Shown here: positions 22,275 to 61,580 of the stretch, one piece after another
Layout: each line of letters opens with the position of its first letter
How positions within the stretch are numbered: the stretch's first letter is position 1
DNA from: Paludibacter sp.
GTDB taxonomy: Bacteria; Bacteroidota; Bacteroidia; Bacteroidales; Paludibacteraceae
Assembly (NCBI GenBank): GCA_028692715.1
Contig: JAQUWU010000004.1
Location: forward strand, 1-64,000
DNA: 64,000 bases
Direction: 5' to 3'
Program-made: the position numbers and the translations under genes
The notes under the pieces: model-generated
Told to the model about the DNA's origin: nothing
The model's database searches: none
What the model saw: only the letters and a program-made list of their open reading frames with translations

Positions 22275-22300
22275 AATCCCTAACCCCTAAAGGGGAATTA
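22275..22300 (-). repeat. GC-rich junction palindrome (family A), start-proximal
   Basis: CCCCTAAAGGGG core plus a second CCCTAA arm. In the sense of the DUF2148 gene it is a G-rich TTTAGGGGTTAGGG ending a few nt before the ATG. The sense-upstream flank carries AATACTAAC, also seen beside the copies before nuoCD and kdgA. Confidence 0.8.
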
Positions 22301-32837: not shown

Positions 32838-35246
32838 TTATTCTACAACATTCATTTTGTTTTCAGTTGGTGCAACTTCAATACTTTCCTCTAAATCAAT
32901 AGATGAGGAGTCAACAGACGTAGTATCAGGTTTAATATAAGTATGACAGCCATACGGTCTGGAAATAGGTTCTTTAGGTTTTGCCGGGAATTTTCCACGA
33001 TATTGTTTCAGATTTTCGTCTTTCAATACTTTTTCCATAAACAATCCGAATATCGGTAGAGCGGTTTTACTCCCTTCACCTAGTTGTCCTGTCCGGAAAT
33101 GGACACTGCGTTGTTCTCCACCGACCCAGGCACCACCAACCAGATTTTTGGTTACACCCACAAACCATGCATCCGAATGATTGGACGACGTTCCGGTTTT
33201 ACCTCCAAAATCTGTATTATAACGGAATAAATCCCATTCCCACAAAGCCTGAGTGGTAGCTCCGGGTTCGGTCATTCCACCTTTTAATAATTCGGTCACC
33301 AACCAAGCATCTTCGTAAGGTATCACCCTTTTCTGTGTTGTATTTGGTTGATAAATAATTTTTCCATCCTTATCTTCGATACGGGTAACCAAAATCGGTT
33401 CGTGTTGAACACCTTCATTTACTATTGTTCCAAATGAGTTGACCAGTTCCAGTAATGATACATCTGAAGAACCTAAACAGATTGATGGTTGATTTTCCAG
33501 TTTCGTTTTTATTCCCAATAAATAAGCATATTTGATTATTTCATTTATGCCTACTTTTTCAGCCAATTGTACGGCAACAGTGTTTACCGACCTGCCGAAT
33601 GCATGTTTCAATGTCATGGTTGTACCTGTGAAAACACCGTTTGCATTATGTGGGCTCCAGCTTTTTTTCTCACCTTTTTCCACATAATCCCATGTAACAC
33701 GTTTGTCGGTCATCATATCACAAGGCGACATACCACTCATTATAGCTGCTGTGTACACAAAAAGTTTAAATGTTGATCCTGGCTGACGTTTGGCTTGTGC
33801 CACTTTATCGTATTGCCAGAATTTGAAATTGATATCACCTACCCATGCTTTTACATTTCCTGTTTCAGGTTCCATTGCCACAAAACTAGTGTGCAGAAAA
33901 TGGTTCATATATCGGATAGAATCCATAGTACTCAGTGTAGTATCTTTTTCAATTAAATCATAATCAAAAACCTTTGTTCTATGAGGCAAATTCATATATT
34001 TGTCAATGGAATCAACATTATTATTAAATCGGTTGCTCAAGGTTGAATAATATTTTGTTCGTTTTGCAATATCTTCCACAAAGTTGACAATGTCTTTATG
34101 ATTTTCATCTTGCCAGGGGTTTTGTCCCCGCCAGTGATCAAAAAACTTACGTTGAAGTGACCGCATTTGTTTATTCACAGCTTCTTCGGCATATTTTTGC
34201 ATGCGCGAATCGATAGTCACATAAATTTTCAATCCATCTGAATAAATGTCATAACCATTTTGCTCTTCCCAATCTTTCAGGTATTTATCCAAATATGCAC
34301 GGAAATGCAAAGCGTCACCATCGTACGACTGTTCCATACTGTAATTTAATTTGATAGGAATTTCTTTCAACGAATCACATTCGTGCTGCGTAATTATATT
34401 GTGAACAACCAGATTTTCAAGAACAATATCTCTCCGTTCTTTTGAGCGTTTAGGGTGGGAAATAGGGCTATAAGTAGTTGTAGCTTTGAGCAAACCAACT
34501 AATGTGGCCGATTGTTCGTAATTTAATTTTGCAGGAGTAGTTTTGAAGAATGTCTTTGAAGCTGTATAAATTCCGAATGAATTACTTCCAAAATCAACCG
34601 TATTCAGGTACATGGTTAGAATATCCTGTTTAGTATAGAAAATTTCAATTTCAATAGCTATAGTCCATTCTTTTGTTTTGCTGATAATGAGTTTTAAACC
34701 GGGAATATATCCAAATAAACCTGTAGAATACTGGTTCCTGGTTTTATACATGTTTTTTACCAATTGTTGAGTGATGGTACTTGCACCACGACTTTTACCT
34801 TTGGTCATATCTTTTAAAGCGGCAAAAACAGCCTGAAAATCGATGCCAAAATGTTTGTAAAACCGTTCGTCTTCAGTGGAAATAAGTGTTTCAATAAGTT
34901 TAGGCGAGATTTCTTCGAATGTAACAGGCGTACGGTTTTCATGGAAATATTTTCCCAACACTTTACCGTCCGAAGTATAAATTACGGATGCAACACTTTG
35001 ATTTGGATTGCTGATACTACTTAATCCGGGAGATTTTCCGAATAACCATAAAAAATTTATATCAACTAAAAAAAGATAAAGAATAAATAAAACGAATGTC
35101 GTAACAAAGGCATTGGCAATTTTACGATACCATACCAATCCTTTAAATCGGGTAAGTCGAGCTTTGCGCCAGTTGATGAACTTTTTTAAATAGCGTTTAA
35201 TAAAATCAATAATAAAATGATAGAGACTTACTAATTTATTCCACAT
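32838..35246 (-). CDS. Class A penicillin-binding protein (PBP1A type)
   Basis: An 802-residue bifunctional peptidoglycan synthase anchored by one N-terminal helix (about 48-70). The GT51 glycosyltransferase domain (about 90-290) carries 'STEDERFYKHFG' and 'GASTITQQLVKNMY'. The transpeptidase domain (about 430-740) has the SxxK nucleophile box in 'QPGSTFKLF', 'GRSVNTVAV' (SxN) and 'GGKTGTSSNHSDAWF' (KTG). It polymerises and cross-links glycan strands in the periplasm. A TAACTTTG -7-like box lies 23-30 nt upstream of the ATG (35269-35276). A partial relic of a second copy lies 1.7 kb away. Confidence 0.96.
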   Translation of the reverse strand: MWNKLVSLYHFIIDFIKRYLKKFINWRKARLTRFKGLVWYRKIANAFVTTFVLFILYLFLVDINFLWLFGKSPGLSSISNPNQSVASVIYTSDGKVLGKYFHENRTPVTFEEISPKLIETLISTEDERFYKHFGIDFQAVFAALKDMTKGKSRGASTITQQLVKNMYKTRNQYSTGLFGYIPGLKLIISKTKEWTIAIEIEIFYTKQDILTMYLNTVDFGSNSFGIYTASKTFFKTTPAKLNYEQSATLVGLLKATTTYSPISHPKRSKERRDIVLENLVVHNIITQHECDSLKEIPIKLNYSMEQSYDGDALHFRAYLDKYLKDWEEQNGYDIYSDGLKIYVTIDSRMQKYAEEAVNKQMRSLQRKFFDHWRGQNPWQDENHKDIVNFVEDIAKRTKYYSTLSNRFNNNVDSIDKYMNLPHRTKVFDYDLIEKDTTLSTMDSIRYMNHFLHTSFVAMEPETGNVKAWVGDINFKFWQYDKVAQAKRQPGSTFKLFVYTAAIMSGMSPCDMMTDKRVTWDYVEKGEKKSWSPHNANGVFTGTTMTLKHAFGRSVNTVAVQLAEKVGINEIIKYAYLLGIKTKLENQPSICLGSSDVSLLELVNSFGTIVNEGVQHEPILVTRIEDKDGKIIYQPNTTQKRVIPYEDAWLVTELLKGGMTEPGATTQALWEWDLFRYNTDFGGKTGTSSNHSDAWFVGVTKNLVGGAWVGGEQRSVHFRTGQLGEGSKTALPIFGLFMEKVLKDENLKQYRGKFPAKPKEPISRPYGCHTYIKPDTTSVDSSSIDLEESIEVAPTENKMNVVE

Positions 35247-35439
35247 ATTTGTACTTTGAATTTTGCTGCAAAGTTACTGCAAAAGATTGAATATTACTCG
35301 TATTCTATTAAATGCTATAGCTTTTTCAACACGAACTTGTAAAATTGTTTCTTGAGAACAGCGGTTTTGTCTTAAAAGTTAATTCTGAAATTTTATTGAG
35401 ACAGAAATTTGATGTTTTAACCTGTAATATTAATTGAAA

Positions 35440-35469
35440 ACCCGCTTCAAGCTAAAACTTACAGCGGGT
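35440..35469 (-). terminator. Terminator at the end of the nuo operon
   Basis: ACCCGCT (35440-35446) pairs with AGCGGGT (35463-35469). In nuo sense the stem is followed by TTTTC, and on the other strand by a T-run, so it could work in both directions. It lies 50 nt after the nuoN stop. The rest of the 273-nt gap is plain AT-rich sequence. Confidence 0.65.
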
Positions 35470-35519
35470 CTTGTTTTTTTTATAAGTTCCATTTACCAAC
35501 AGATAGTAGGGATTAGAAG

Positions 35520-36941
35520 TTACATTCCAAAACTAAATGAAGCAATCTGAGTATAGAATGTACTTACTAATCCAATAATTAAAATACCTGCAGTACAAAT
35601 AACTAAACTTAGTTTTACCGGGAAGTCACTACTAATCTGTTCAATCGGTTGTTCGTTTTTATTGAGGAACATCGCTTTGATAACTAATAAGTAATAATAC
35701 AATGAAATGATCGTATTTAGTAAAGCAATAAATACTAAGACATAATATCCTTCGGCAGCAGCAGCTGAAAATATAAAGAATTTACTGAAGAATCCGGCAA
35801 ATGGAGGAATCCCGGCCAACGAGAATAATGCTAACATCATGACGAAACTCAACTTTGGATTTGTTTGATATAATCCATTGTAATCATACATTTCTACTTT
35901 TCCTGAACGGTTTTCGATGACAGATATTACTCCGAATGCAGCTAAATTCGAGAACATATAGACTAAAACGTAATATACCAGCGAAGCCATTCCTAAAGCA
36001 CTTCCACTTATAATTGCAAGTAAAATGTAACCTGCCTGTGAAATAGATGAAAAGGCAAGAAAACGTTTCAGATTTTGCTGACGGATGGCAAAAATATTTG
36101 CGACAGTAATACTTACAATAGCTAGTCCGTATAAAATTGGTTGCCATGATGTTGCCAGATTCCCAAATACTTTAATTAATAAAGTGAACAAAACAAATAC
36201 TGCTGAACCCTTTGAAATAACTGAAAGATAAGAAGTTATATTTGTTTGGGCACCTTCGTAAACGTCCGGAGTCCATAAGTGGAAAGGTACAAGCGATATT
36301 TTGAAAAACAAACCAACAACAAAAAAGACGAACGCCATTATTTGGAGGGGAGTGCCTGTGATTAAAGTGGCTAAATCCGAGAAATATAGTGTTCCGGTTG
36401 ATCCGTAAATCAAGGACATTCCGAACAAGGATATACTTGATGCAAAAACAGCTGAAAGAATATATTTTGCACCAGCTTCAGCCGATTTATGTTTGTATTT
36501 TTCAAATGCAACCAATGTAGCCATTGGAATAGAAGCCATTTCGAGTCCAATAAAGAACATTAAAAAGTTACCGGAAGATATCATGAAGTACATACCTAAT
36601 AGGGTGGAAAGAGTCAGAAAATAAAACTCACCACGCTTAATGCGGTTGTCATCTTCATTCAGAAATTTATGAGCTTGAAGAAATACTATCAATGTTCCGA
36701 CATTCAGTATCCCTTTTATAATACTGTGCATTGGGAAGTAATGATACATTCCACCAGCAACTTCGAAAGTGTCCACCGGAATAATATTCAGGGCTGTATG
36801 TACTGCGAATAGAATCAATGAGATAGGTTGAAAATATTTCAACAACTTTTCTCCCGCAAATATGTCATAAATCAATAGAAAAATCATCACTGCCAATAGA
36901 GAAAATTCTTCACGCATTTGTAAAAATCCAATGTAATCCAT
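35520..36941 (-). CDS. nuoN: NADH-quinone oxidoreductase subunit N
   Basis: A 473-residue Mrp-type antiporter-like membrane subunit of complex I with about 14 helices. Signatures are '[25 protein letters not shown]' (conserved Glu of helix 5), '[20 protein letters not shown]' (proton-path Lys/His region) and '[20 protein letters not shown]'. It is the last gene of the nuo operon, followed by a terminator. It pumps protons with NuoL and NuoM. Confidence 0.96.
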
Positions 36942-37026
36942 TCTATTTTTTTTTTAGCCCAAAACCCACGAAGGAGGCTTTTATTAATATGTTTTTAATA
37001 TCAAATATAAATATTTTGTTTTATCA

Positions 37027-37058
37027 CTCCCTCTCCTTTGGAGAGGGTTGGGGTGAGG
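37027..37058 (-). repeat. Junction repeat family B after nuoM
   Basis: CTCTCC TTT GGAGAG hairpin with a GGGTTGGGGTGAGG arm. In nuo sense it starts 2 nt after the nuoM stop codon with CCTCACCCCAACCC. Confidence 0.8.
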
Positions 37059-37060
37059 TA

Positions 37061-38542
37061 TTATTTTACCAACTGACTAATTACCGGTAATACACTCTCG
37101 TGAATCATACCCGAAATCCAGAATGGAGCCGAACCTATAATAAAGATGGCAATTATCAAGGTAATAACTGATATTCTTTCGTACCAAGTAGCATCAGTCA
37201 AATGTTCGTGATGAGCATCCTGAATAGAACCAAACAAAATTTTCCCCACAACACGAAGAATATAAACCGCTGTGATAACAATCGATGTGGTGGCAACAAT
37301 TGTCAGAACACGGTGAAATGTATCGGTATGTTCAAATGATCCAATAAAAATAGTCATTTCAGCAACGAAACCACTTAAACTTGGTAAGCCCAATGAAGCC
37401 AAACCGGCAATTACATAACTAACACCAAGAAAAGGTATTACTTTCATTAAACCGCCCATTTCTGTAATTAAACGGGTATGAGTACGTCCGTAAATCATAC
37501 CAATTAAAGCAAAGAAAAGTGCAGTCATTAAACCGTGCGAAAGCATTTGTAGCACTGCACCGGTCATGGCTGTTTCATTCAACATTAAAATGGCGAATAA
37601 TACCAATCCGCAGTGACTAACTGAAGAATATGCATTGATATATTTTAAATCGGTTTGACGAATAGCTGCAAATGCTCCGTAAACAACACTTATTCCTGTA
37701 AGAATCAGGAAGAACCAAGCCATTTCTTGCGCTGCTTCAGGCATTAAATAAATTGCCACACGAAAAGCCCCGTAACCTCCGAGTTTCATCAATACACCGG
37801 CGTGCAACATCGAAACCGCTGTAGGAGCAGAGGCATGACCATCAGGCGACCATGTATGGAAAGGAAACAATGCGCCTAAAACTCCAAATCCCATAAAAGT
37901 AAGCGGGAAAAAGTATTTTTGCAAATCATACGGAATATGTAATTTGGAAATTTCCAGAATATTCATACTCGTAGCACCTGAACCGTAATAAATTCCAAGA
38001 ATCCCAACCAATAACAACGCAGAACCACCCATCAACATTAAAGTTAGTTTCATCGCACCGTATTCTTTACGACCACTCCCCCAAACACCAATAAGCAAAT
38101 ACATTGGGATTAAAGCGATTTCGTAGTACATAAACATCGTGAACAAATCGGTGGAAATAAAGAATCCATAAACTCCGATAGATAATAAACTATACCACAA
38201 GAAAAATTCTTTTGGTAGCGGATCAATTTTCCACGAAGCAAATACACCTGTGAATACAATGATTGAAGTTAACAATAACATCGCTACCGAAATACCATCT
38301 ATTCCTACTGAATAATGAATATTAAATGGAGCATACCAAACTGTATCGGCTGTAAAAACCATTTCGGCAATATTGCCGGCAGCTCGTTCAGTCATATATA
38401 AGTAGGTAATTGTTCCTGATAGAATCATTAATAAAGTTGCACCAGTAGCCATAACAAACTGTATTTGTTTCCGTGTTTTCGAAACAAATAAGCCCATCAT
38501 CATTATAACCGGAATAAGTACGAATAAAGATAAAAAGTTCAT
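37061..38542 (-). CDS. nuoM: NADH-quinone oxidoreductase subunit M
   Basis: A 493-residue complex I antiporter-like subunit with about 14 helices. Diagnostic segments are 'FTMFMYYEIALIPMYLLIGVWGSGRKEYGAMK' (essential Glu), 'FPFHTWSPDGHASAPTAVSMLHAGVLMKLGGYG' and 'ASLGLPSLSGFVAEMTIF'. It is separated from nuoL upstream by a foreign-looking acyltransferase gene and followed by a repeat 2 nt after its stop. Confidence 0.96.
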   Translation of the reverse strand: MNFLSLFVLIPVIMMMGLFVSKTRKQIQFVMATGATLLMILSGTITYLYMTERAAGNIAEMVFTADTVWYAPFNIHYSVGIDGISVAMLLLTSIIVFTGVFASWKIDPLPKEFFLWYSLLSIGVYGFFISTDLFTMFMYYEIALIPMYLLIGVWGSGRKEYGAMKLTLMLMGGSALLLVGILGIYYGSGATSMNILEISKLHIPYDLQKYFFPLTFMGFGVLGALFPFHTWSPDGHASAPTAVSMLHAGVLMKLGGYGAFRVAIYLMPEAAQEMAWFFLILTGISVVYGAFAAIRQTDLKYINAYSSVSHCGLVLFAILMLNETAMTGAVLQMLSHGLMTALFFALIGMIYGRTHTRLITEMGGLMKVIPFLGVSYVIAGLASLGLPSLSGFVAEMTIFIGSFEHTDTFHRVLTIVATTSIVITAVYILRVVGKILFGSIQDAHHEHLTDATWYERISVITLIIAIFIIGSAPFWISGMIHESVLPVISQLVK

Positions 38543-38628
38543 ATAATTATATTAAAAATGAAAACGCAAATTTTAATTGCATTTCTTGTCTATTAAATAT
38601 TCAATTCAAAACTATTAATAATTTGTTA

Positions 38629-39696
38629 TTATCTACTTCCAGTTATTACATTATAAAACTTTGGCACACTTTGCTTTAAAAAACCTCCCAGTGAAATTCC
38701 AAGCAATATTGTAATAAATGGTACTGCCATGTAAATAATTAAAGAAGAAAACTCACTTTTCCCCAAAAAAATAAAAAGACCTCTTCTTATTATACTAAAT
38801 ATTGGTACATGAAAAACGAAAATGAAAAACGAAAACGAACTATATTTATAAAACTTACTATTTGTAAGATCTTTGTCTTTAAAAAAGAAATCATACAAAC
38901 TCCAAATTGATAAAACACCAAACAATATACTTGATATTTGTAAAATGTTCATTATCAGAACGTCCTGATATTCATTAAAAAGCAATATTGTTTTAATTAA
39001 AACTAATGCAAACCATAGAAATGAGTAGAGCCGATAATACCTTGAAAAATCAATTAAGAGTAAATTTGTTTTATTTATACTAAGTATTGCACCCAAAGAA
39101 AAAAACAGTATTGATCGATTCTCGAAAATAACATAATCAAAATTAAAAACCCATGTAATAAATAAAATTATTATAAAATAAAAACCTGTAAGTCTTATTA
39201 ACCAATATATTATCGGTGATAAAACTACAAGTAAAATTAAATCTCTTAGAAACCACAATTGAAATGGTATTGGATTAAGAAATAGTTTAGTTAACAATTC
39301 GTTAAATGAATAATCTATTATTAATTTGCTGCCAAAAACAGATTGAAATCCAGGGATTAATTGTAAAACAAAAAATAATAATACAACTCCGGTTGACCAG
39401 AACAAATAAGGTATTGTTAATGATTTAAATCTTTTCTTGAATTTTGTGATGAACTCTTTTTTCGTTCCTTTAAAATTAAAATAAAACAGATAACCAGAAA
39501 TTAAGAAAAAAAGCGGTACTGCTGTAAGTGATATTCCGTAACTAATAAAGTCCTGAAAAAAGGAACTATAACCATTCTCCAATACGGCGTTTCCTGCCAT
39601 TGATACATCTCCAATATTATGAGAATGTATAAACACAACCATAATTATTAATATAAACGAAATGACTTTTAATTTCACACTTAAGTATTTGTTCAT
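38629..39696 (-). CDS. Acyltransferase family 3 membrane protein inserted in the nuo operon
   Basis: 355 residues with about ten hydrophobic helices and the acyltransferase-3 (OafA/WecH-like) pattern: 'SFILIIMVVFIHSHN' in helix 1, 'FFLISGYLFYFNFKGTKKEF', 'TIPYLFWSTGVVLLFF' and 'LWFLRDLILLVVLSPIIYWL'. Such enzymes acylate surface polysaccharides, peptidoglycan or lipids. Base composition is visibly more AT-rich than the flanking nuo genes, and complex I has no subunit of this kind. It looks like an acquired gene between nuoL and nuoM, in the same direction and therefore perhaps expressed from the nuo promoter. The substrate is unknown. Confidence 0.85.
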   Translation of the reverse strand: MNKYLSVKLKVISFILIIMVVFIHSHNIGDVSMAGNAVLENGYSSFFQDFISYGISLTAVPLFFLISGYLFYFNFKGTKKEFITKFKKRFKSLTIPYLFWSTGVVLLFFVLQLIPGFQSVFGSKLIIDYSFNELLTKLFLNPIPFQLWFLRDLILLVVLSPIIYWLIRLTGFYFIIILFITWVFNFDYVIFENRSILFFSLGAILSINKTNLLLIDFSRYYRLYSFLWFALVLIKTILLFNEYQDVLIMNILQISSILFGVLSIWSLYDFFFKDKDLTNSKFYKYSSFSFFIFVFHVPIFSIIRRGLFIFLGKSEFSSLIIYMAVPFITILLGISLGGFLKQSVPKFYNVITGSR

Positions 39697-39778
39697 AACT
39701 GTATTGCAGTACTCTGAAAATATTTTCTAATTTTGATTGGTATTTAACTGTTTCAATGTTGTTTTTAGTATATATCTT

Positions 39779-39802
39779 CGAAAGTCCCTTTAGGGGCTTT
39801 CG
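39779..39802 (-). repeat. Junction palindrome (family A) after nuoL
   Basis: A near-perfect hairpin, CGAAAGTCCCT TT AGGGGCTTTCG, whose end lies 9 nt beyond the nuoL stop codon. It separates nuoL from the inserted acyltransferase gene. Confidence 0.7.
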
Positions 39803-39811
39803 GATGCTGTC

Positions 39812-41716
39812 TTATATAAATATCACCAAAGCTGCAATTACCAGCGTCCCCAATAAAAATACATAAGCATATTGTTGCACCTGACCGGATTGGAAACCCT
39901 TTGTCTTGCGTGAAATTAATTGAGTTGTATTTGCAAAACCATCCATGGTTGCATCAATCACATGACGATCAAACCATGCCACCGGACGTGATATATTGTT
40001 GAAAATGATTTTTTTAGTAATAAATAAATATACTTCATCAATATAAAAACGATGAGTTGCAGCTTTGTGTAAACCTGAAAAAGTAGTCGCCAGTTTATTC
40101 AGTATATTACTTTCTTTTTTATATAAAATAGTTGCAAGTGTAATGGAAACTACAGCTACTAAAATACTAATAATTGCTGTTTTCATATCAATTTCACTAT
40201 GAAGTGATATTCCATCGCTTGTTACAAACTCGCTAAAATGAGAAGCCCATCCGATAAAAACGGTTACTGTAGCAAGAAAAACCAAGGGAAATGCCATCGC
40301 AAATTTTGATTCATGAGGTGTGTGAGCCTGTTTGTGCTCCTTTCCCCAAAAAATGCTGTAATATAAACGGAACATATAAAATGCCGTTAATCCTGCAGTA
40401 AAACTCATCATAGCTCCAAAATACGGATTGAAATTAAATGTGGCTGTAAGAATCTCGTCCTTGCTGAAAAATCCGGAAAAAGGTGGAATGCCTGAAATAG
40501 CCAGACAAGCGATTAGAAAGGTCCAGTTGGTGATTGGCATATGTTTACGAAGTCCGCCCATATTTCCCATCTCGTTGCTATGTACTGCATGAATAATTGA
40601 ACCGGCACCCAAAAATAACAACCCTTTAAACATGGAGTGAGTAAACAAGTGGAACATTCCGGCCATATAACCTAAACCTTCTTCGCCGCCCATACGTGAA
40701 ACGCCCAAGGCCACCATCATAAATCCAATTTGTGAAATGGTAGAAAATGCCAGAACACGTTTAATATCAGTTTGCACACAGGCAATTACAGCTGCAAATA
40801 AAGACGTAAATGCTCCTACATAAGCAATCCCATGCAATACATCTGGAGCGTATAAATCATAAACGGGGAACAATCGTGCTACCAGATAAACTCCTGCAAC
40901 AACCATTGTGGCAGCATGAATCAAAGCTGAAACAGGTGTGGGACCTTCCATGGCATCCGGTAACCAAATATGTAGTGGAAACATAGCCGATTTACCTGCG
41001 CCACCAATAAAAATTAATCCCATTGTCCAGCTCATTAACGAAATTCCCATAAACGAAACGCCTGTTGTACTTGCAAATACACTTGCTTCACCAGAAGTAA
41101 GAATGCCAAAATCAAATGTTTTTGTATAAAAAGAAAGGAATAAAATTCCTACTAGAAAGCCTAAATCGGCAAAACGAGTTACAATAAATGCTTTTTTTGC
41201 TGCTGCAACCGCCGAAGGTTTTGTATAGTAAAATCCTATTAATAAATAGGACGAAACGCCCACTAACTCCCAAAAAATATACATTTGGAAAATATTTGTT
41301 GCTACAACTAACCCTAACATTGAAAAACTAAATAATGAAAGGAATGAGTAATATCGTTCAAATCCTTTTTCACCTTTCATATAACCAAGACTGTAAATAT
41401 GGACCATCAAGGAAATGGTAGTAATTACCACCAACATCATTACTGATATAGGATCAAGTAAAATTCCCAAATCAATATGCAGGTTTTCAGTAAATCGCAT
41501 CCATTGAAAGTGAAAAGGAATAATTTTCTGATATACACCATTTAGTTTGGCTGATGAAAAATATTCCCATGCAGTAGTGTATGAAAGTGCTGTAATAATT
41601 CCTAAAACAGTAGTTCCGATGGTTCCCGCAACTTTTGGCTTCCACTTGGAATCTATCAACCCCAACAAAATAAAGCTAAGTAGTGGAAGTAATAAAATTA
41701 ATAATGTATATTGCAT
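39812..41716 (-). CDS. nuoL: NADH-quinone oxidoreductase subunit L
   Basis: A 634-residue, largest antiporter-like subunit of complex I. Markers are 'FQMYIFWELVGVSSYLLIGFYYTKP' (essential Glu), 'GAGKSAMFPLHIWLPDAMEGPTPVSALIHAATMVVAGVYL', 'MGNMGGLRKHMPIT' and 'SGIPPFSGFFSKDEIL', and a long C-terminal part that would form the lateral helix HL. About 16 helices are predicted. Confidence 0.97.
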   Translation of the reverse strand: MQYTLLILLLPLLSFILLGLIDSKWKPKVAGTIGTTVLGIITALSYTTAWEYFSSAKLNGVYQKIIPFHFQWMRFTENLHIDLGILLDPISVMMLVVITTISLMVHIYSLGYMKGEKGFERYYSFLSLFSFSMLGLVVATNIFQMYIFWELVGVSSYLLIGFYYTKPSAVAAAKKAFIVTRFADLGFLVGILFLSFYTKTFDFGILTSGEASVFASTTGVSFMGISLMSWTMGLIFIGGAGKSAMFPLHIWLPDAMEGPTPVSALIHAATMVVAGVYLVARLFPVYDLYAPDVLHGIAYVGAFTSLFAAVIACVQTDIKRVLAFSTISQIGFMMVALGVSRMGGEEGLGYMAGMFHLFTHSMFKGLLFLGAGSIIHAVHSNEMGNMGGLRKHMPITNWTFLIACLAISGIPPFSGFFSKDEILTATFNFNPYFGAMMSFTAGLTAFYMFRLYYSIFWGKEHKQAHTPHESKFAMAFPLVFLATVTVFIGWASHFSEFVTSDGISLHSEIDMKTAIISILVAVVSITLATILYKKESNILNKLATTFSGLHKAATHRFYIDEVYLFITKKIIFNNISRPVAWFDRHVIDATMDGFANTTQLISRKTKGFQSGQVQQYAYVFLLGTLVIAALVIFI

Positions 41717-41800
41717 TATCTCGAAGTTAATAATTTACAATTAATAATTAAAATTCTTTTCCTGCAAAATGCAGCTAATTAATGAGCAACTCCCCAATTA

Positions 41801-41833
41801 ACCTCTCCTCAAGGAGAAGGGCAGGGGTGAGGT
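41801..41833 (-). repeat. Junction repeat family B after nuoK
   Basis: CCTCTCC TCA AGGAGAAGG with a GGGGTGAGG arm. In nuo sense it begins directly after the nuoK stop: TAA then ACCTCACCCC. Confidence 0.75.
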
Positions 41834-42172
41834 TTACTCTTTCATTTCATCAATACTCCCAACTTCAACGCTGGTAAGATTTCTGTAAATATTTATAATG
41901 ATTGCAATGGCAACAGCAGTCTCACAGGCTGAAATGGCAATGGCAAAAAGGGTGAAAAAGAAACCCTCAAAATGTTCGGGATATAAATACCGATTGAAAA
42001 TAGCGAAGTTCATTTCTGCAGCATTTAGCATTAGTTCAATCGATATTAAAATCATTAATAAACTTTTGCGCGAAAGGAAACCGTAAATTCCTGCAAAGAA
42101 CATAATTAAGCTAATACCTAAATATGCTTCAATTGGTACTTGTCCGCTAAAAATGTTATTTAAAATGTCCAT
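41834..42172 (-). CDS. nuoK: NADH-quinone oxidoreductase subunit K
   Basis: 112 residues, three membrane helices, with the conserved Glu pair in 'LLMILISIELMLNAAEMNFAIF' and 'TLFAIAISACETAVAIAIIINIYR'. These glutamates belong to the proton path of complex I. Length is normal for NuoK. Confidence 0.96.
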   Translation of the reverse strand: MDILNNIFSGQVPIEAYLGISLIMFFAGIYGFLSRKSLLMILISIELMLNAAEMNFAIFNRYLYPEHFEGFFFTLFAIAISACETAVAIAIIINIYRNLTSVEVGSIDEMKE

Positions 42173-42187
42173 ATGAATAATTTATAA

Positions 42188-42212
42188 GTCCCCTTTATGG
42201 GATTTAGGGGTT
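42188..42212 (-). repeat. Junction palindrome (family A) between nuoJ and nuoK
   Basis: GTCCCC TTTAT GGGATTTAGGGG. In nuo sense the C-rich arm starts 4 nt after the nuoJ stop (TAA AAAACCCC). Confidence 0.7.
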
Positions 42213-42214
42213 TT

Positions 42215-42718
42215 TTATCGTTTTCTTGCAATCATAATAGCACCAACAATACAGGTCAGCAATAAAACACTGATTGTTTCAAAAGGCAATAGATATTGAT
42301 ATTTTTCAGTCCCCATCATGGTATGACCCAAAAATTGAGGTGTAATTTCGTTTAAAGTAACTAATTGAGATACTTTGTTTACATTGTGATATATGATATG
42401 AGCACAAAATGCAAATCCTACAGCAGCAGTAATTCCAGCAACATAACGTCTGATTCGCAATTCTGATCTAACTCTTTCTCCCGGTTTATTTGTAAGCAAA
42501 ATGGCGAAAATAAACAAGACCATAATACCACCGGCATAAACAGCTATCTGAACGGCAAATAAATATGTGTAACCTAACAATAAATATAATCCGGCTGTAC
42601 CAAGTAATACAAATAATAGATAGGTTGCTGAACGGATAATTCGTTTAGACGAAACCGCCATGATGGAAAAAATGGCTATTATTGCCGCTAAAATGTAAAA
42701 TATAATCTGTTGTGCCAT
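42215..42718 (-). CDS. nuoJ: NADH-quinone oxidoreductase subunit J
   Basis: 167 residues with five membrane helices: 'IIFYILAAIIAIFSIMAVSSKRIIRSATYLLFVLLGTAGLYLLLG' region, 'VQIAVYAGGIMVLFIFAILLTNK' (conserved QxxVYxGGIMVLF motif) and a final 'FETISVLLLTCIVGAIMIARKR'. I start at ATG 42718, although a TTG five codons earlier is in frame inside a run of AATGTGCT repeats. Confidence 0.95.
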   Translation of the reverse strand: MAQQIIFYILAAIIAIFSIMAVSSKRIIRSATYLLFVLLGTAGLYLLLGYTYLFAVQIAVYAGGIMVLFIFAILLTNKPGERVRSELRIRRYVAGITAAVGFAFCAHIIYHNVNKVSQLVTLNEITPQFLGHTMMGTEKYQYLLPFETISVLLLTCIVGAIMIARKR

Positions 42719-42723
42719 AAGAT

Positions 42724-42752
42724 GATGTGCCAATGTGCTAATGTGCTAATGT
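42724..42752. repeat. Short tandem repeat between nuoI and nuoJ
   Basis: ATGTGCCA ATGTGCTA ATGTGCTA ATGTGATA: four imperfect 8-bp units in the 50-nt gap upstream of the nuoJ ATG. It may be slippage-prone. Confidence 0.7.
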
Positions 42753-42768
42753 GATAATTTGTAAGACC

Positions 42769-43281
42769 TTAGTCTTTAAGTCCCCCTTCGGGGGATTTAG
42801 GGGGTTCTTCTTTCTTTTTTTCTCTCAGTTTCGATCCTTCGTGATTTAATTGTTGTTTCAATTTTTCACGGTTAAAAACGGCATTTTCGTATGTGTTTTC
42901 AAATTTTATAGCATTTGAAGGACAGGTCAATACACACAGATTGCAAAAAGTACACATGCCTAAATCCCATTGATAGGTATCCAATATTTTTTTCTTTTTA
43001 CCATCTTCGGTTTCTATTATTTTTGAATTTACTTTGATAGTACCGTTAGGACAATTCATCTGACAGATTCCACAAGCGGTACAGGCATGTTCATTGTTTT
43101 CGTCGTGGGGCATTGTTAATTCGCTTCTCCAGCGTTCCGAGATTACCAATGTGTCACGGTTTTCAGGATATTGTTGCGTCACTTTCTTCGTCCATAACTC
43201 TTTCCATGTTACGGACATACCCAAAAGCAACGATTTGATGCCGGTAAATAAACCTGAAAAATATTCTGATATTGAACTCAT
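42769..43281 (-). CDS. nuoI: NADH-quinone oxidoreductase subunit I
   Basis: A 170-residue peripheral subunit with two [4Fe-4S] ferredoxin motifs, 'CTACGICQMNCP' and 'CTFCNLCVLTCP', which pass electrons to NuoB. ATG 43281 is used; a TTG two codons upstream is less likely. The last twelve codons read EPPKSPEGGLKD and are encoded exactly by a family A junction repeat (CCCCCTAAATCCCCC GAAGGGGG), so the tail is probably repeat-derived and not functional in the usual sense. Confidence 0.95.
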   Translation of the reverse strand: MSSISEYFSGLFTGIKSLLLGMSVTWKELWTKKVTQQYPENRDTLVISERWRSELTMPHDENNEHACTACGICQMNCPNGTIKVNSKIIETEDGKKKKILDTYQWDLGMCTFCNLCVLTCPSNAIKFENTYENAVFNREKLKQQLNHEGSKLREKKKEEPPKSPEGGLKD

Positions 43282-43350
43282 ATTCAATTAATAATTAATA
43301 ATTCATAATTTTCTTTTGCAATTTACTGCCTAAATTGATTTAATTGCTCG

Positions 43351-43382
43351 CTCCATCTCCTTTGGAGAGGGTTGGGGAGAGG
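43351..43382 (-). repeat. Junction repeat family B after nuoH
   Basis: CATCTCC TTT GGAGAGGG with a TTGGGGAGAGG arm. In nuo sense it starts directly after the nuoH stop: TAG then ACCTCTCCCC. An AT-rich AATTAATAATTAATAATTC stretch follows towards nuoI (about 43284-43306). Confidence 0.8.
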
Positions 43383-43383
43383 T

Positions 43384-44505
43384 CTAAAATAAACCAGGAA
43401 ACAAATCAGTTAATGTCAATCCAGTCAACACCAAAATTACCATCACCAGTATATTTACTAAATTTATTGGTAGTAGATATTTCCATTCCAAATTTAGTAG
43501 TTGATCAATACGTAAACGAGGGAATGACCACCGAACCCATAAACTTAAGAAAATCAAAACAGTCGTTTTTCCAAAAAACCAGATATATGTTGGAATATAT
43601 GCCATAATTTGATTAAAACCATCCCAACCATGAACCTGTATTGGTAAATATCCACCTAAAAACACTGCAGTAGCTATTGACGCAATAATAAACATATTAA
43701 GATATTCAGCAAGATAATAGAATCCAAATTGCAGACCTGAATATTCAGTGTGATAACCGGCAGTTAATTCCGATTCCGCTTCGGGTAAGTCGAATGGTCC
43801 ACGATTCGTTTCAGCATGTCCAGAAATTAGATAAATGACAAATGCTACCATCGAAGAAATATGACCGTTGAAAATGTTCCAGCAATATCGTTGTCCTTCA
43901 ATCATATTAGAAAACTGCATTGTGCCGGCTAAAACTACGATAGTCATTAATGCAAAACCAGCAGAAAGTTCGTAACTTACAAACTGAGCTCCACTTCGCA
44001 TAGCACCAATCATCGAATATTTATTGTTACTCGACCAACCGGCCAGCAAAACACCAATAATTCCAAGTGAAGAAACAGACATTACGTATAAAACTCCTAT
44101 ATTAAAGTCGATAGCGTGTAGCCCTTTTCCAAATGCTATAGCACCGAAAGTCAACATGGAAGCTGAAATCATAAAGAACGGAGCGGCAAAAAACAAAAAG
44201 CGGTCGGAACGATTGATTTTGATAATTTCTTTTAATAAAATTTTTATCATATCGGCCACACTCTGTAAAAGTCCCCATTTTCCAACGCGATTAGGTCCGT
44301 AACGAGCTTGAAAGAAAGCGGTAATTTTACGTTCCACATAAATAAGGACTAACGCAATAACTGCATATGCAGCTAGTAATGCAAAAACAACCAATACAAA
44401 TTCAATAAATAAAACCCAAAAGTTAGATAAGTTGCTTCTTAGCAATTCGTCTAACCAATTTGTCAAGTTCGAAATTTCTAATGGTTGTGAATAATTTAAT
44501 ATCAT
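43384..44505 (-). CDS. nuoH: NADH-quinone oxidoreductase subunit H
   Basis: A 373-residue membrane subunit that forms the quinone chamber with NuoB and NuoD. Signatures are '[40 protein letters not shown]' (ERK..R.GPN region), '[11 protein letters not shown]', '[23 protein letters not shown]' and '[19 protein letters not shown]'. ATG 44505 is used in preference to an upstream TTG inside the preceding repeat. About eight to nine helices are predicted. Confidence 0.96.
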
Positions 44506-44517
44506 AAAAAGTATAAT

Positions 44518-44606
44518 TACCCCCAACCCCTAAAGGGGAGTTGAGATGTTCGTAATGTTTATATTATAAACCCAATTTTTTCTTCCCCTTTAGGGGTTAG
44601 GGGTCA
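44518..44606 (-). repeat. Inverted pair of family A palindromes between nuoCD and nuoH
   Basis: Two copies, at 44519-44545 and 44583-44606, in opposite orientation. In nuo sense the gap opens with TGACCCCTAACCCC right after the nuoCD stop and closes with CCCCTTTAGGGGTTGGGGG before the nuoH ATG, so the two ends of the gap could pair into one long hairpin. Confidence 0.8.
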
Positions 44607-46235
44607 TCATCTGTCAATATCCGGAATTACATAATCCATTGAACCACCAATACCAATAAAGTCGGAAATTTTTTCGCCGGCACAAATTAAAGGCATTGCC
44701 GATACCAATGCCATTGAAGGCGAACGGAATTTCAAACGATAAGGCGTTTTTTCGCCTCTGCTGTCAATAAAAATACCGAATTCGCCTTTTGCCGCTTCTA
44801 CGCGTTGATAGTATTCTCCTTCTGGTAATCTGATAATGGCTTTTGTTTTAGTACAAATGTCACCTTCAGGAATATTATCAATTAATTGTTCTATAATATG
44901 TAATGATTCTTCTATTTCGTCTAAACGATTCAAATAACGAGCATATGAATCACCTTCAGTGCGGATTATTTCTTTAAAATCTACTTTGTCGTATAAGGAG
45001 TATGGATGATGTTTACGAATATCACACGACCAACCCGAAGCACGTCCGGCAGGTCCTGTAACGGCATAGGTAATGGCTTCTTCTTTTGTCATATTGCCAA
45101 TGCCAATCATACGTCCCAATGCGATCACATTATGAGAGAAAAAGCGGTCATATTCTTTCAGCTTTTCACGCATGTAAGGGATAAATGCTTTTACATCTTT
45201 CTGAAAATCAGTATAAATATCAAACATAACACCACCAATCACATTTTGATTGATAATCAAACGTCCACCGCATGTTTTATCAAAAATATCCAGAATTACT
45301 TCCCGCTCACGCATTCCATAAATAAAAGCAGTAATAGCACCCAAATCGTTTGTCATTGCTGCCCATGCGAGCAAATGCGAATCGATACGGGTTAATTCGT
45401 CCATAATGGTACGTATATATTGAGCACGATCGGGGATTTCAATTTGAGCAGCATTTTCTACGCATAAACACAATCCATGACGATTGATGTTTGCCGAAAG
45501 ATAATCAAGTCGATCGGTAAAATGCAGAATTTGAGGGTAAGTGAGACTTTCGCTCAATTTTTCGATGCCCCGATGAATGTATCCGCTATGAACATCAATC
45601 TTTTTTACAATTTCGCCATCCAGTGCAGTGCGAAAATGCATAACACCGTGGGTTGAAGGGTGCTGAGGTCCAATATTTATAATATAATCGTCTTCCTCAA
45701 AAATATTGACCGTTTTTTCAACTAGTTTGCCATCAACTTCCATGATACAAGGAGCTGTATCAACTATTTCCTTACTTTCCAGTGATACCGGATTTAATTC
45801 AGGATTTGCATCATAATCTTTTCGCAATGGAAAACCAACCCAGTCGGAATTAAGGAAAAATCTGCGCATATCAGGATTGTTGATAAAACGAATCCCTAAC
45901 ATTCCATAAACTTCACGTTCGTTAAACTGAGCTGTTTCGTATAAATCAGTAATCGAATATAAAAGTGGATTTTCCCGGTCGGAAGTACCTGTTTTTATAA
46001 CAATTTCTTTTGAAAGATCTTGAGATGACGAGAGTAAATAAATGACGCCCAATTTTTCTCCCCAATCCATTCCAATAAGCTTTACCAAAAAATCAAATGG
46101 TAACTCAGCATTTTGAAATAAAGTTTTTACCAACAAGTGAAGACTGTTTGGTTCAACTGTTACGGTAAGTTTTTGCTTTTCTTCTATCACTGCATCTTTT
46201 ACAGTAGAAAGTATCAGCGTTTTAATTTTTTCCAT
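44607..46235 (-). CDS. nuoCD: Fused NADH-quinone oxidoreductase subunits C and D
   Basis: 542 residues. The NuoC part spans about 1-155 ('TDLYETAQFNEREVYGMLGI', 'WVGFPLRKDY') and the NuoD part about 180-542 ('INIGPQHPSTHGVMHF', 'SGYIHRGIEKLSESLTYPQ', 'HLLAWAAMTNDLGA', 'GPAGRASGWSCDIRKHHPY', and a 'KFRSPSMALVSAMP...SMDYVIPDIDR' end), with the quinone-site His and Tyr in their expected contexts. The fusion is known in several bacterial lineages. It lies between nuoB and nuoH as in the canonical order. Confidence 0.95.
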   Translation of the reverse strand: MEKIKTLILSTVKDAVIEEKQKLTVTVEPNSLHLLVKTLFQNAELPFDFLVKLIGMDWGEKLGVIYLLSSSQDLSKEIVIKTGTSDRENPLLYSITDLYETAQFNEREVYGMLGIRFINNPDMRRFFLNSDWVGFPLRKDYDANPELNPVSLESKEIVDTAPCIMEVDGKLVEKTVNIFEEDDYIINIGPQHPSTHGVMHFRTALDGEIVKKIDVHSGYIHRGIEKLSESLTYPQILHFTDRLDYLSANINRHGLCLCVENAAQIEIPDRAQYIRTIMDELTRIDSHLLAWAAMTNDLGAITAFIYGMREREVILDIFDKTCGGRLIINQNVIGGVMFDIYTDFQKDVKAFIPYMREKLKEYDRFFSHNVIALGRMIGIGNMTKEEAITYAVTGPAGRASGWSCDIRKHHPYSLYDKVDFKEIIRTEGDSYARYLNRLDEIEESLHIIEQLIDNIPEGDICTKTKAIIRLPEGEYYQRVEAAKGEFGIFIDSRGEKTPYRLKFRSPSMALVSAMPLICAGEKISDFIGIGGSMDYVIPDIDR

Positions 46236-46409
46236 AAGATTATCCCTACCCCTAAAGGGAGATTGGATTAGTATTTTAATAACCCCTGACCCTTAAAGGG
46301 GTACAGAATTACATTATATTATTGGTCTAAGTAATTAAATATTTTGGTACGAACTCTTTAATTCCCCTCTTTTCTCCCTCTCCTCGGGGAGAGGGTTGGG
46401 GTGAGGTGT
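46236..46409 (-). repeat. Cluster of three junction repeats between nuoB and nuoCD
   Basis: Family B sits at about 46374-46408 (CTCTCCTCGGGGAGAGGG plus GGGGTGAGG, starting 2-3 nt after the nuoB stop), and two start-oriented family A copies at 46281-46303 and 46246-46268 lie before the nuoCD ATG. As at the nuoCD-nuoH junction, the C-rich arm is next to the stop and the G-rich arms are next to the start. Confidence 0.75.
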
Positions 46410-46973
46410 TCACCGTTGTTTATTTCCCAAAAATTTTTCAACTTTAATTTTACGTTGCAATTGCATTAAGCCGTAAAATAACGATTCCGGACGAGGAGGA
46501 CAGCCCGGAACGTAAACATCAACTGGAATTATTTGATCTACACCTTTAATTACATGATATGAATTGACAAATGGACCACCTGAAATAGCACAAGCACCCA
46601 TTGCTAATACATATTTCGGTTCTGCCATTTGATCGTAAACACGCTTTATAAGTGGTGCCATTTTGTGAACCATTGTTCCGGCTACAATCATTAAATCGGC
46701 CTGACGTGGACTGTTGCGTGTTACTTCCATCCCAAAACGGGCAATATCGTGATGAGCTGCAGCAGCGGACATAAATTCAATACCACAACAACTAGTTGCA
46801 AAAATCAAAGGCCACACTGAGTTTGAACGACCCCAATTGATTAATTCATCAATTTTACTCAATACAACATTTACTCCACCCGCTTCCAGTTCTTTAATAT
46901 AATTTTCAAGATATTCGTTGTCGTTGAAATCTTCTGTTGGAATATCTTTTATGTGTACATTTTTTAACTCCAT
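46410..46973 (-). CDS. nuoB: NADH-quinone oxidoreductase subunit B
   Basis: A 187-residue subunit carrying the terminal cluster N2. The ligands are visible in '[11 protein letters not shown]', '[10 protein letters not shown]' and '[19 protein letters not shown]'. Two ATGs are possible. I choose 46973 because AAAAGGAG lies 7 nt before it and because it overlaps the nuoA stop by 10 nt, typical of coupled genes; 46994 would add seven residues. Confidence 0.95.
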
Positions 46974-47317
46974 TTCAAAACTCCTTTTTTCCATGCATAG
47001 GCAAGACCTAAACCAAGGATTATTATAAAAAATATGATGCTATACAATCCAGTATAGCCTAAATCCCGAACAACTGTGGACCAAGGAAACAAGAAAATGG
47101 TTTCAACATCAAACATCAAATACAAAATGGCATATAAATAATAACCTACTTTGAATTGCATCCATGAAGTTCCGTGAGTTGGAATTCCACACTCGTATGG
47201 TTCTCCCTTTTGAAGATTGAAAGATTTTGGAGCCAACCAAATGGCAATGCCCAAGCCAGCAACCACCAATACAATTCCGGCAATGAATACGTCCAGAAAG
47301 AGTGATAAATTGTTCAT
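46964..47317 (-). CDS. nuoA: NADH-quinone oxidoreductase subunit A
   Basis: 117 residues with three membrane helices. Markers are '[42 protein letters not shown]' (the conserved ECG and DVExxFLFPW motifs). ATG 47317 places helix 1 at the N-terminus; an ATG 26 codons upstream is in frame but would add a poorly conserved extension. It is the first gene of the operon. Confidence 0.95.
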
Positions 47318-47953
47318 AAAAATGAATATAAAAAATTGTATAAAAAACGTTGCAAAGGAACTATTTTTTTTCTTATTAATGGAACGTTTTAACACTTAAA
47401 TTCCGTAAACGTAAATATTGAAAATTACTACTTTTAGTGAATTTATTTTGTTGATATATAGTAGTATAAATTTTGTTCTGATTCAATATATATACATAAA
47501 TTAGTATTATTATATATTTTTAGTTTTGTGAATTATCGTTTTATGCTTAAAATCCTCCCTTTTTAAAAATTTATATACTTACAAAAAAAAAATCGGAATT
47601 AACTAACTGTATAAATATGCGTTTTTAACTATGGTTTATTTCTAAAATGTTTATTGGACACTAATAATAAAAGATATAAAAACTGGGGATTTTGTTTACA
47701 ATAGTTCGATTTAAAATATCAAATTTCACCTACCTATTCGGTAAGCAGATGCGAAGAAAACTGTAAAGTTTTCACTACCGATAAATCGGCATGTTTTATT
47801 TGTGTCCAATATTTTAAAACGTAGATATTTGGTAGGTTCTACTCTCTTCCTGAATGGACTCATGAATTATTCTTAAAGTAAACAAATTAAAATATCTATC
47901 GATATTCATTTTTACATAGTTTCATGATCTTTTAAGCTCGAAGGAAAGAAAAA
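47318..47953. other. 636-nt gene-free region upstream of nuoA
   Basis: Very AT-rich. Near nuoA, on the minus strand, TTCCTTTG (about 47350-47358) is one base off the TAnnTTTG -7 consensus and could be the nuo promoter, but no -33 partner is clear. At 47729-47836 several short helices nest inside a CCTACC/GGTAGG pair, a possible structured RNA (see findings). No coding frame here is credible. Confidence 0.5.
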
Positions 47954-48847
47954 TTAAAGGATTTCTTTATAGGGTTCAGTATGAATGTTTGTAATGGTTT
48001 TTTCTCCAAATCTATTTCGGAGTTTTTGTTCGAGTTCGGTTGCAATATCATGCGAAAGAACAAACTCAATATTTTTATTTAATTTTATATGAATATCTAT
48101 TGCGTAGATATTACCGATTTTTCTTGTCTTCAGGTTGTGGTAAGCCAAAATTTCCTTGTTCGATTCAACTATTTTGATAATTTCATTTTCGGTTTCAATG
48201 GGTAATGATTTTTCCAATAGTTCGTTAAAAGTAGGGATTCCCAATTCAATAGCTACCTTAATAATGAAAATGCTGACAACGATTCCGGCAATTGGATCTA
48301 AAATTCTCCAATGTTCTCCTAAAAACATTGCCCCAGAAATACCTAAGGCCGTTCCAATAGATGAAAATGCATCCGACCGATGATGCCAACCATTGGCGAT
48401 TACAGCCTGACTGTTTATCTTTTCGCCCACCCTTTTTGTGTACCAAAACAAACCTTCTTTTATTACAATTGATATCAGTGCGGCAATTAATGCAATGAAG
48501 GTAGGTTGTTCAATAATCTCCCCTTTTAGTACATCAATAACCTTATTTCCACCGTTCCATAATATGCCCAACCCCACAATTAATAATGCAAAACTGATAA
48601 GAAAAGTGGCAAAGGTTTCGTATTTACCGTGACCGTACTGATGATCCTTATCTCTTTCTTTGCCTGATACACCAATGAATATAATCACAATCACATCCGT
48701 GACAAAATCAGATAATGAGTGTACACCATCAGCTATCATTGCTGTACTCTTGCCCATAACTCCGGCAAATAATTTAAATGTAGTCAAAAGCAAATTAAAG
48801 AAAAACCCAATCCAGGTTACTTTCCGGGCTGTATTAATTCTATCCAT
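47954..48847 (-). CDS. Cation diffusion facilitator family transporter (FieF/MamM-like)
   Basis: 297 residues, six helices and a C-terminal cytoplasmic domain. The zinc site HxxxD occurs in helix 2 ('ADGVHSLSDFVTD', His43/Asp47) and in helix 5 ('WHHRSDAFSSIG'). The C-terminal domain ends with 'ITNIHTEPYKEI', the usual metal-binding HxEP region. It exports zinc or a similar divalent metal by proton exchange. A TATTTTTG box lies 32 nt before the ATG (48879-48886, minus strand). The neighbour is a different CDF subfamily. Confidence 0.93.
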   Translation of the reverse strand: MDRINTARKVTWIGFFFNLLLTTFKLFAGVMGKSTAMIADGVHSLSDFVTDVIVIIFIGVSGKERDKDHQYGHGKYETFATFLISFALLIVGLGILWNGGNKVIDVLKGEIIEQPTFIALIAALISIVIKEGLFWYTKRVGEKINSQAVIANGWHHRSDAFSSIGTALGISGAMFLGEHWRILDPIAGIVVSIFIIKVAIELGIPTFNELLEKSLPIETENEIIKIVESNKEILAYHNLKTRKIGNIYAIDIHIKLNKNIEFVLSHDIATELEQKLRNRFGEKTITNIHTEPYKEIL

Positions 48848-53869: not shown

Positions 53870-53893
53870 ACCCCTAAATCCCCTAAAGGGGAC
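53870..53893. repeat. Junction palindrome (family A) between amn and holA
   Basis: ACCCCTAAATCCCCTAAAGGGG follows the amn stop TAG with no spacer and ends 8 nt before the holA ATG, so one copy fills nearly the whole 32-nt gap. Confidence 0.8.
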
Positions 53894-53901
53894 TTTATAA
53901 T

Positions 53902-60757: not shown

Positions 60758-61423
60758 TTATTTTTTTATTTTTTGTATGATGGCTAATGTATCACTACAT
60801 AGTCTTGTGATTTCCGCCCAATTGCCTGCTTTCATTACGTCGGCAGGAAAAAGGTTAGAACCCATACCGACACAAGTTGCTCCTGCATTAAACCATGTTT
60901 TTAGGTTTGCTTCTTCTGGTTTCACTCCACCGGTTATCATTAGGTTAGACCATGGCATTGGTGCTTTCAATCCTTTTACAAAACCGGCACCCAACACATC
61001 TCCCGGGAACACTTTGCAAATGTCGCAACCTGCTTCCTGTGCAAAACCAACTTCAGAAACCGATCCACACCCTGGTGCATAAGGAATTAATCGACGATTT
61101 GCTACTTTTGCAATGTCAGGATTGAATAAGGGACCAACAATAAAGTTAGCTCCCAATTGAATGTAAAGTGCAGTTGTGGGAGCGTCTACGATAGAACCGA
61201 CACCCATAATCATTTCGGGACATTCTTTGGCGGCATATTTTACCAATTCTCCAAAAACCTCATGGGCAAACTCGCCACGGTTTGTGAATTCAAATGCACG
61301 TACACCACCATCGTAACACGCTTTTACGACTTTTTTTGATACTTCAATATCACTATTGTAAAAAACCGGAACCATGCCGGTTTCTTTCATAGCTGTAATT
61401 ACTTGAACTTTGTTGAATTTCAT
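60758..61423 (-). CDS. kdgA: Bifunctional KDPG/KHG aldolase
   Basis: A 221-residue class I aldolase splitting 2-keto-3-deoxy-6-phosphogluconate into pyruvate and glyceraldehyde-3-phosphate. Seen are '[35 protein letters not shown]' (catalytic Glu), '[29 protein letters not shown]', '[12 protein letters not shown]', and the Schiff-base lysine in '[13 protein letters not shown]', with the phosphate loop '[11 protein letters not shown]'. Last step of hexuronate breakdown, after KdgK. Two start-proximal repeats precede the ATG. Confidence 0.93.
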
Positions 61424-61433
61424 TTTGTGTAAT

Positions 61434-61580
61434 ATTACCCCCGACCCCTAAAGGAGAGGAGGAAAAGTTAGTATTGTTTTACCCCTAACCCCTAAAGGGG
61501 AATAAGAGTTGTATGTATTGATTTTTACAAATAATTTATAAACGAAAGTAATTCAGTCCCCCTTTAGGGGTTAAGGGTTT
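61434..61580 (-). repeat. Three family A palindromes between kdgK and kdgA
   Basis: A stop-proximal copy at 61557-61577 starts 3 nt after the kdgK stop. Two start-oriented copies, 61480-61502 and 61437-61460, lead up to the kdgA ATG. The same opposed arrangement is seen at the nuoCD-nuoH and nuoB-nuoCD junctions. Confidence 0.8.

Follow-up and report, generated by a model that had tools for sequence, protein, structure and literature searches.

Short palindromic repeats between bacterial genes have been described in several forms. In the accessible part of PMC8049555, a REPIN is defined as an inverted pair of repetitive extragenic palindromic (REP) sequences mobilised by a REP-associated tyrosine transposase (RAYT), and the REPs of E. 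coli and Pseudomonas are described, in the accessible parts of PMC3733652 and PMC12306157, as lying near the 3′ ends of open reading frames and sometimes supplying the stop codon. E. coli REPs at most 15 nt from a stop have been reported to stall ribosomes (excerpts of PMC12306157, citing Liang 2015, and of PMC5082802). Here, we analysed C-rich palindromes of two families, A and B, in a 64,000-nucleotide stretch from Paludibacter sp. (assembly GCA_028692715.1, contig JAQUWU010000004.1, positions 1 to 64,000; hereafter the window), where they stand directly behind stop codons, above all in the nuo operon. They are a real repeat family of a known, REPIN- or MITE-like kind (MITE, miniature inverted-repeat transposable element). 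On the sequence evidence, the palindromes look mostly like halves of small mobile-looking units of this kind, and their placement at stop codons is mostly explained by unit structure plus compact gaps, with a residue of possible targeting.

The initial annotation had listed nine gene ends with a palindrome right after the stop. Reading the sequence upheld eight of them, with stop-to-foot gaps, in gene sense, of 1 nt for nuoM, 0 for nuoK, 0 for nuoH, 2 for nuoB, 2 for nuoCD, 3 for nuoJ, 0 for amn, and 2 for kdgK (gene names are those of the best NCBIfam match, several of which score below the curated cut-off). The ninth, suhB, a gene of the inositol monophosphatase family that was said to end in a fragment of an element, had to be dropped: the claim is based on the 9-mer AACCCCTAG, which occurs once against a chance expectation of 0.2, and by eye no hairpin follows it. 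The annotation had also overlooked the second half of the structure: copies occur as inverted pairs whose C-rich feet point outward, and where a pair is compact, the foot of the partner is 1-22 nt ahead of the next start. The elements at the eight gene ends, with their partners, are as follows.

37026..37059, minus strand: B element, left half, foot 1 nt past the nuoM stop (37061-37063)
36956..36981, plus strand: degenerate inverted partner, A-like, 9 mismatches, foot 14 nt ahead of the nuoN start (36941)
41799..41833, minus strand: B-type element, 11 mismatches to the B3 seed, foot abutting the nuoK stop (41834-41836)
42186..42211, minus strand: A2 element, foot 3 nt past the nuoJ stop (42215-42217)
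43350..43383, minus strand: B element, foot abutting the nuoH stop (43384-43386)
44582..44604, minus strand: A1 element, left half, foot 2 nt past the nuoCD stop (44607-44609)
44519..44543, plus strand: A4 inverted partner, foot 13 nt ahead of the nuoH start (44505)
46374..46407, minus strand: B element, left half, foot 2 nt past the nuoB stop (46410-46412)
46282..46304, plus strand: A1 element, inner copy, foot 46 nt ahead of the nuoCD start
46241..46265, plus strand: degenerate A-type inverted partner, 7 mismatches, foot 5 nt ahead of the nuoCD start (46235)
53870..53895, plus strand: A2 element, foot abutting the amn stop (53867-53869); the element plus 6 nt is the entire spacer to the next gene
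61556..61578, minus strand: A1 element, left half, foot 2 nt past the kdgK stop (61581-61583)
61481..61503, plus strand: A1 element, inner copy, foot 57 nt ahead of the start at 61423
61437..61461, plus strand: A4 inverted partner, foot 13 nt ahead of the start at 61423

The paired structure was then examined in sampled stretches of three genomes: 858 kb of the window's own genome (G000; 4.85 Mb in 122 contigs), 389 kb of G002, and 400 kb of G016, another member of the genus whose genome is one contig of 3,685,504 bases. Nine seed sequences located 93 copies in G000, 34 in G002, and 75 in G016, and none in the reversed sequence, used as a control; copy densities are biased because the G016 stretches and most of the G000 and G002 stretches were picked from places or contigs known to hold copies. 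Among close neighbours (<250 bp apart, the MITE C1 described below included), feet pointed outward in 56 of 68 cases, and 54 units measured 76-166 bp foot to foot. The two halves of a unit also match each other, the mean duplex energy being -37.2 kcal/mol for halves of the same unit versus -33.7 kcal/mol for re-dealt partners (0 of 200 shuffles; 21 units, in three of which the left half was misplaced because of gene overlap). Nine pairs of units were at least 85% identical. In six of them, 85-92% identical, both 20-nt flanks were at most 45% identical, and in the other three at least one flank was common. Because units this similar sit between unrelated flanks, the stretch that was copied seems to extend from one foot to the other, judging by a few similar copies found mainly in G016. 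Each unit consists of a foot and hairpin, a variable AT-rich middle, and a second hairpin and foot with both feet outward, and the few similar copies show it copied as a whole to new sites.

With at most two mismatches, the whole genome of the window holds 46 B and 130 A matches compared with 0 and 2 for the reversed patterns, counted as matches, so that two overlapping matches on one copy count twice. Of the 35 genomes in a genus sample, 33 contained the A pattern, and the B pattern was found in 30 of the 60 relatives' genomes searched; when one mismatch was allowed, A was present in 9 of 148 phylum-wide genomes, and the eight besides the window's own, which is included in all three counts, belong to the same class. 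Among named relatives, those nearest to the window's genome are for the most part Paludibacter and uncultured Bacteroidales metagenome-assembled genomes, with NuoCD identity up to 87%. No publication about these repeats was apparent among the matches listed in sequence-string literature searches.

These units resemble REPINs, as far as the accessible text of PMC8049555 describes them, in having inverted palindromic ends, a variable middle, an intergenic location, tens to hundreds of copies, and singles as apparent remnants. Unlike those of REPs and REPINs, however, their feet read ACCCC (A) and ACCTC (B), not GT[AG]G. They share with MITEs that they are short, non-coding, bounded by inverted terminal repeats, and copied whole, whereas inspection by eye of the flanks of six units showed no target-site duplication, and no parent transposon sharing the ends was found in the sampled stretches. 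An autonomous parent lying between outward feet was considered and rejected, as six outward pairs 400-4000 bp apart in those stretches share no protein.

To describe placement, each copy was re-placed within its own spacer in 1000 rounds, kinship between copies being ignored. Genes were called with a simple dicodon model, so that some called spacers, above all the long ones of G016, may hide missed genes; copies outside called spacers (19 in G000, 6 in G016, and 6 in G002) were omitted. The G000 test set then comprised 48 non-C1 copies, 26 facing a stop and 22 facing a start. At -1 to +4 nt from the stop, we found 15 of the 26 stop-facing copies in G000 (re-placement mean 1.7, maximum 6), 11 of 34 in G016 (1.0 expected), and 2 of 9 in G002 (0.3 expected, reached in 47 of 1000 re-placements). 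The foot was closer to the gene than the tail in 45 of 48 copies in G000, 51 of 64 in G016, and 18 of 20 in G002, and no tail end came as close to a stop (-1 to +4 nt) in the G000 sample. The claim that placement at gene ends goes beyond random was thus borne out, and the annotation's own refuting condition, no excess within 5 nt of stops or no fixed orientation, did not hold in the sampled stretches of the three genomes. Starts are also flanked closely, with 17 of 22 start-facing copies in G000 (7.1 expected), 13 of 30 in G016 (4.6 expected), and 7 of 11 in G002 (1.5 expected) lying at most 25 nt from the start. These palindromes therefore resemble the E. coli and Pseudomonas REPs in their position near 3′ ends, but here starts are flanked almost as closely, and gaps are most often 0-4 nt, compared with up to 15-20 nt for those REPs.

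We consider it fairly probable that these are small non-coding mobile units whose position beside stops comes from the narrow gap tolerated within operons, with no function at the stop codon needed. An insertion within an operon would survive only between the stop and the approximately 10 nt needed for the next start, as the spacing suggests; a surviving unit would then begin a few nucleotides past the stop and end mostly 5-22 nt ahead of the next start. Nearly every gene end would then also face the unit in the same orientation. Lone halves and hybrid pairs may have arisen when units later decayed, had one half replaced, or took over the last codons of a gene. Outside the unit, no more than 28 nt of spacer is left in 18 of the 29 co-directional paired cases. 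Median nuo spacer lengths are 18-42 nt in loci beyond the closest group, so that what is left in these compact junctions is about as long as the nuo spacers of other families. When no zone was protected, the mean relative position of 17 pairs was 0.18, and 0 of 5000 simulations fell that low. With 9 nt before the start protected, the mean was 0.40 (16 pairs, P 0.12), and with 11 nt protected it was 0.48 (14 pairs, P 0.41). Protecting about 10 nt before the start therefore makes paired placement roughly consistent with uniform insertion. Of the three readings that the initial annotation had offered, namely that the element targets gene ends, that only insertions there survive, or that it acts as a 3′ processing or stability hairpin like bacterial interspersed mosaic elements (BIMEs), survival is the best fit, given these short residual gaps and the fit to uniform insertion.

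Several observations weigh against tolerated gaps as the whole account, and some of them lend support to targeting, in which insertion would be steered to gene ends by an enzyme or by a DNA or RNA state behind the stop and survival would add little. Of 11 lone halves at nuo junctions, 10 lay 0-7 nt past the stop, although 39-82 nt of spacer was left beyond them, and in convergent spacers, where there is no start to protect, 3 of 10 had a copy 2, 2, and 5 nt from a stop (spacers of 346, 362, and 118 nt). For 21 nuo units, four from the window and the others from relatives, which are not independent, the bias toward the stop persisted when 9 nt were protected (18 usable units, P 0.01), was borderline with 11 nt (16 usable, P 0.055), and was gone only at 13 nt (13 usable, P 0.83); in this analysis units below 60 bp were dropped, a pair with L = -42 was omitted, and the remaining negative gaps were set to zero. 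Paired units occur mostly in compact junctions, whereas the C1 MITE of the same genome occurs mostly in longer spacers, and the spacers chosen may therefore reflect more than tolerance. Moreover, a close strain with an empty site was not among the 80 related loci, the best of which was 77% identical.

Steering also draws on the excess over own-spacer re-placement given above for G000 and G016, and on two controls in the window's genome that are not stop-adjacent: C1 (0 of 11 within 4 nt of a stop) and the palindromes of Y1 transposase genes (1 of 14 within 10 nt). C1 was likewise absent from this position in G002 (0 of 3), but 2 of 3 C1-seed matches in G016 lay within 4 nt of a stop, which runs counter to the contrast; these matches are few and may be A-type copies. 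Steering is further weakened by the lack of any motif upstream of the foot in 141 A and C2 copies (no position between -12 and -2 exceeded 0.15 bit), for which reason a sequence-specific target was rejected; the B copies reached up to 0.55 bit, although these are only 12 copies, too few to tell. Starts show the same closeness, paired units become roughly chance-like once the start zone is protected, and repeated replacement at one old site would give the same picture. We regard steering as the chief source of insertion as rather unlikely, although the lone halves and the convergent spacers leave some room for it. C1 itself is a MITE of approximately 164 bp that is bounded by GTAACTACTCAG and CTGAGTAGTCAC, one of its ends carrying an A-like palindrome; 22 left ends were present in the G000 sample (for example C34:4307), and the element measured 163-191 bp for the 17 of 22 whose right end was found.

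The nuo operon was next compared at eight junctions, both in the window's genome and in 22 related loci, which gave 152 junctions in total. A palindrome was present at 43 of the 152, its type differing between loci at the same junction, and was absent by this test from 109, which carry other sequence; 2 of 760 shuffled spacers scored as a palindrome. Left feet lay 0-7 nt past the stop in 33 of 35 cases and right feet 1-20 nt ahead of the start in 28 of 31, counts in which a few are single hairpins read twice, since under the looser palindrome threshold at least two hairpins (nuoJ in the window and nuoI in L111) were scored on both strands as pairs. That most related nuo junctions lack a palindrome argues against a conserved 3′ signal, and the BIME-like reading thus finds no comparative support.

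A hairpin kept for a role in the mRNA behind the stop, either ribosome stalling as for E. coli REPs or BIME-like 3′ protection or processing, would agree in distance with the E. coli rule as given in the available part of PMC12306157. Predicted folding energies of the four nuo B hairpins are -8.0 to -15.4 kcal/mol, their stems start 12-14 nt past the stop, and the two halves of a pair could also fold into one long stem. Against such a role stand not only the 109 junctions without a palindrome but also the variation of type between species, the occurrence of hybrid or broken pairs, and the fact that about half of the copies face starts. A known RNA family was rejected as the identity of the elements, because no Rfam family reached its gathering score within 35000-48000 and only two sub-threshold matches occurred. 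No intrinsic terminator overlapped the elements on the coding strand within 36900-46500, as the 3 of 11 terminator-like sites that do overlap them are all opposite to the nuo strand. A selected role in the mRNA is accordingly quite unlikely as the general explanation, and by analogy with E. coli a ribosome-stalling effect on single genes is possible.

The same comparison bears on a further alternative, that each junction received one old insertion and that recombination between palindromes of different subfamilies rewrote it afterwards, the many stop-adjacent copies then going back to few independent events. The nuoH-nuoI junction holds B, A1, A3, or C2 types in eight loci, one of them the window's, and in seven of the eight the foot is 0-7 nt past the stop; at nuoB-nuoCD, the right gap is 5-6 nt in five loci. 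Both agree with rewriting in place, whereas many relatives have no palindrome there and the spacers are not alignable at this divergence. We hold this history to be improbable for the family as a whole, and tolerated insertion of whole units is preferred.

Stop codons supplied by the elements were also considered as the main cause and rejected, because C-termini look ancestral at most nuo ends. NuoCD has a similar C-terminus in the window and in each of the 22 related loci, and the C-termini of NuoB, NuoJ, NuoK, and NuoM are alike in most loci, element present or not (the NuoM rows for L119 and L121 are mis-hits to NuoL), indicating that ancestral stops were kept. TAG stops made up 7 of 20 in G000 versus 16% of genes, 3 of 16 in G016 versus 15%, and 1 of 3 in G002, an excess in G000 only. 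An element can nevertheless reach into a gene. The last 12 residues of NuoI (42769-42807, minus strand; EPPKSPEGGLKD) are mostly translated A element, so copies can also overlap a gene end; the C-termini in L111 and L112 are similar. The element concerned is the following.

42778..42805, minus strand: A-type element within the nuoI 3′ end, encoding most of the C-terminal residues EPPKSPEGGLKD

As for the mobilising enzyme, Y1 genes were found in 29 of the 35 genus genomes (141 matches), and A or B copies directly bracketed a Y1/RAYT gene in none of the 36 of these loci that were scanned. A copy lay somewhere in the flank at nine of the 36, L101 having one weak match on each side, approximately 0.8 and 1.1 kb off. 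Unlike REPIN-RAYT systems, copies also occur in genomes with no detected Y1 gene, as G021 and G032 hold 82 and 58 A matches without a Y1 match. A Y1/RAYT of the window's own genome was rejected as the mobiliser, because its seven Y1 genes sit, by eye, among other, mostly different palindromes, and a cluster near a Y1 gene in G016 proved on inspection not to be a bracketing arrangement. The TIRtron motif of terminal inverted repeats (TIRs), given in the accessible part of PMC3733652 as GGGGWSAS, is matched by eye by the B foot on the other strand, GGGGTGAG, but not by the A foot; unlike the TIRYT-associated TIRs, these feet do not directly flank a Y1 gene in the scanned loci. It is conceivable, though with a small probability, that the family is moved by a non-RAYT enzyme steered just behind stops in compact junctions, for example via translation termination or exposed single strands. 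Around the Y1 (IS200-like) transposase genes L101-L107 themselves, the flanking palindromes mostly differ by eye from gene to gene, and an A-like copy approximately 0.2 kb upstream of L107 was taken as coincidence.

Unit structure combined with narrow tolerated gaps offers a simple account of palindromic repeats that crowd the 3′ ends of genes, and the stop-codon placement of such repeats in other bacteria can be checked in the same way before a function is assumed.

Two further elements of the window stand apart from the nine listed gene ends.

22276..22298, plus strand: lone A1 right half, foot 3 nt ahead of the start at 22272
39781..39806, minus strand: degenerate A-like hairpin, 8 mismatches, a weak match, 5 nt past the nuoL stop (39812-39814)

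Between nuoL and nuoM, the window carries an acyltransferase-3 gene (PF01757; 38629-39696, minus strand), and the same junction measures 3-219 nt in 16 related loci. Tandem repeats with a period of approximately 7 nt fill many spacers in the related loci (L108-L127 and L169; for example nuoB-nuoCD in L113 and nuoJ-nuoK in L123). They start near the stop, and a TAG stop can belong to the repeat. Lag-7 identity of at least 0.75 was found at 24 of the 152 nuo junctions, palindrome-free ones counted, compared with 0 of 760 shuffles, and the spacers of the window's genome show weak peaks at lags 7, 14, and 21.

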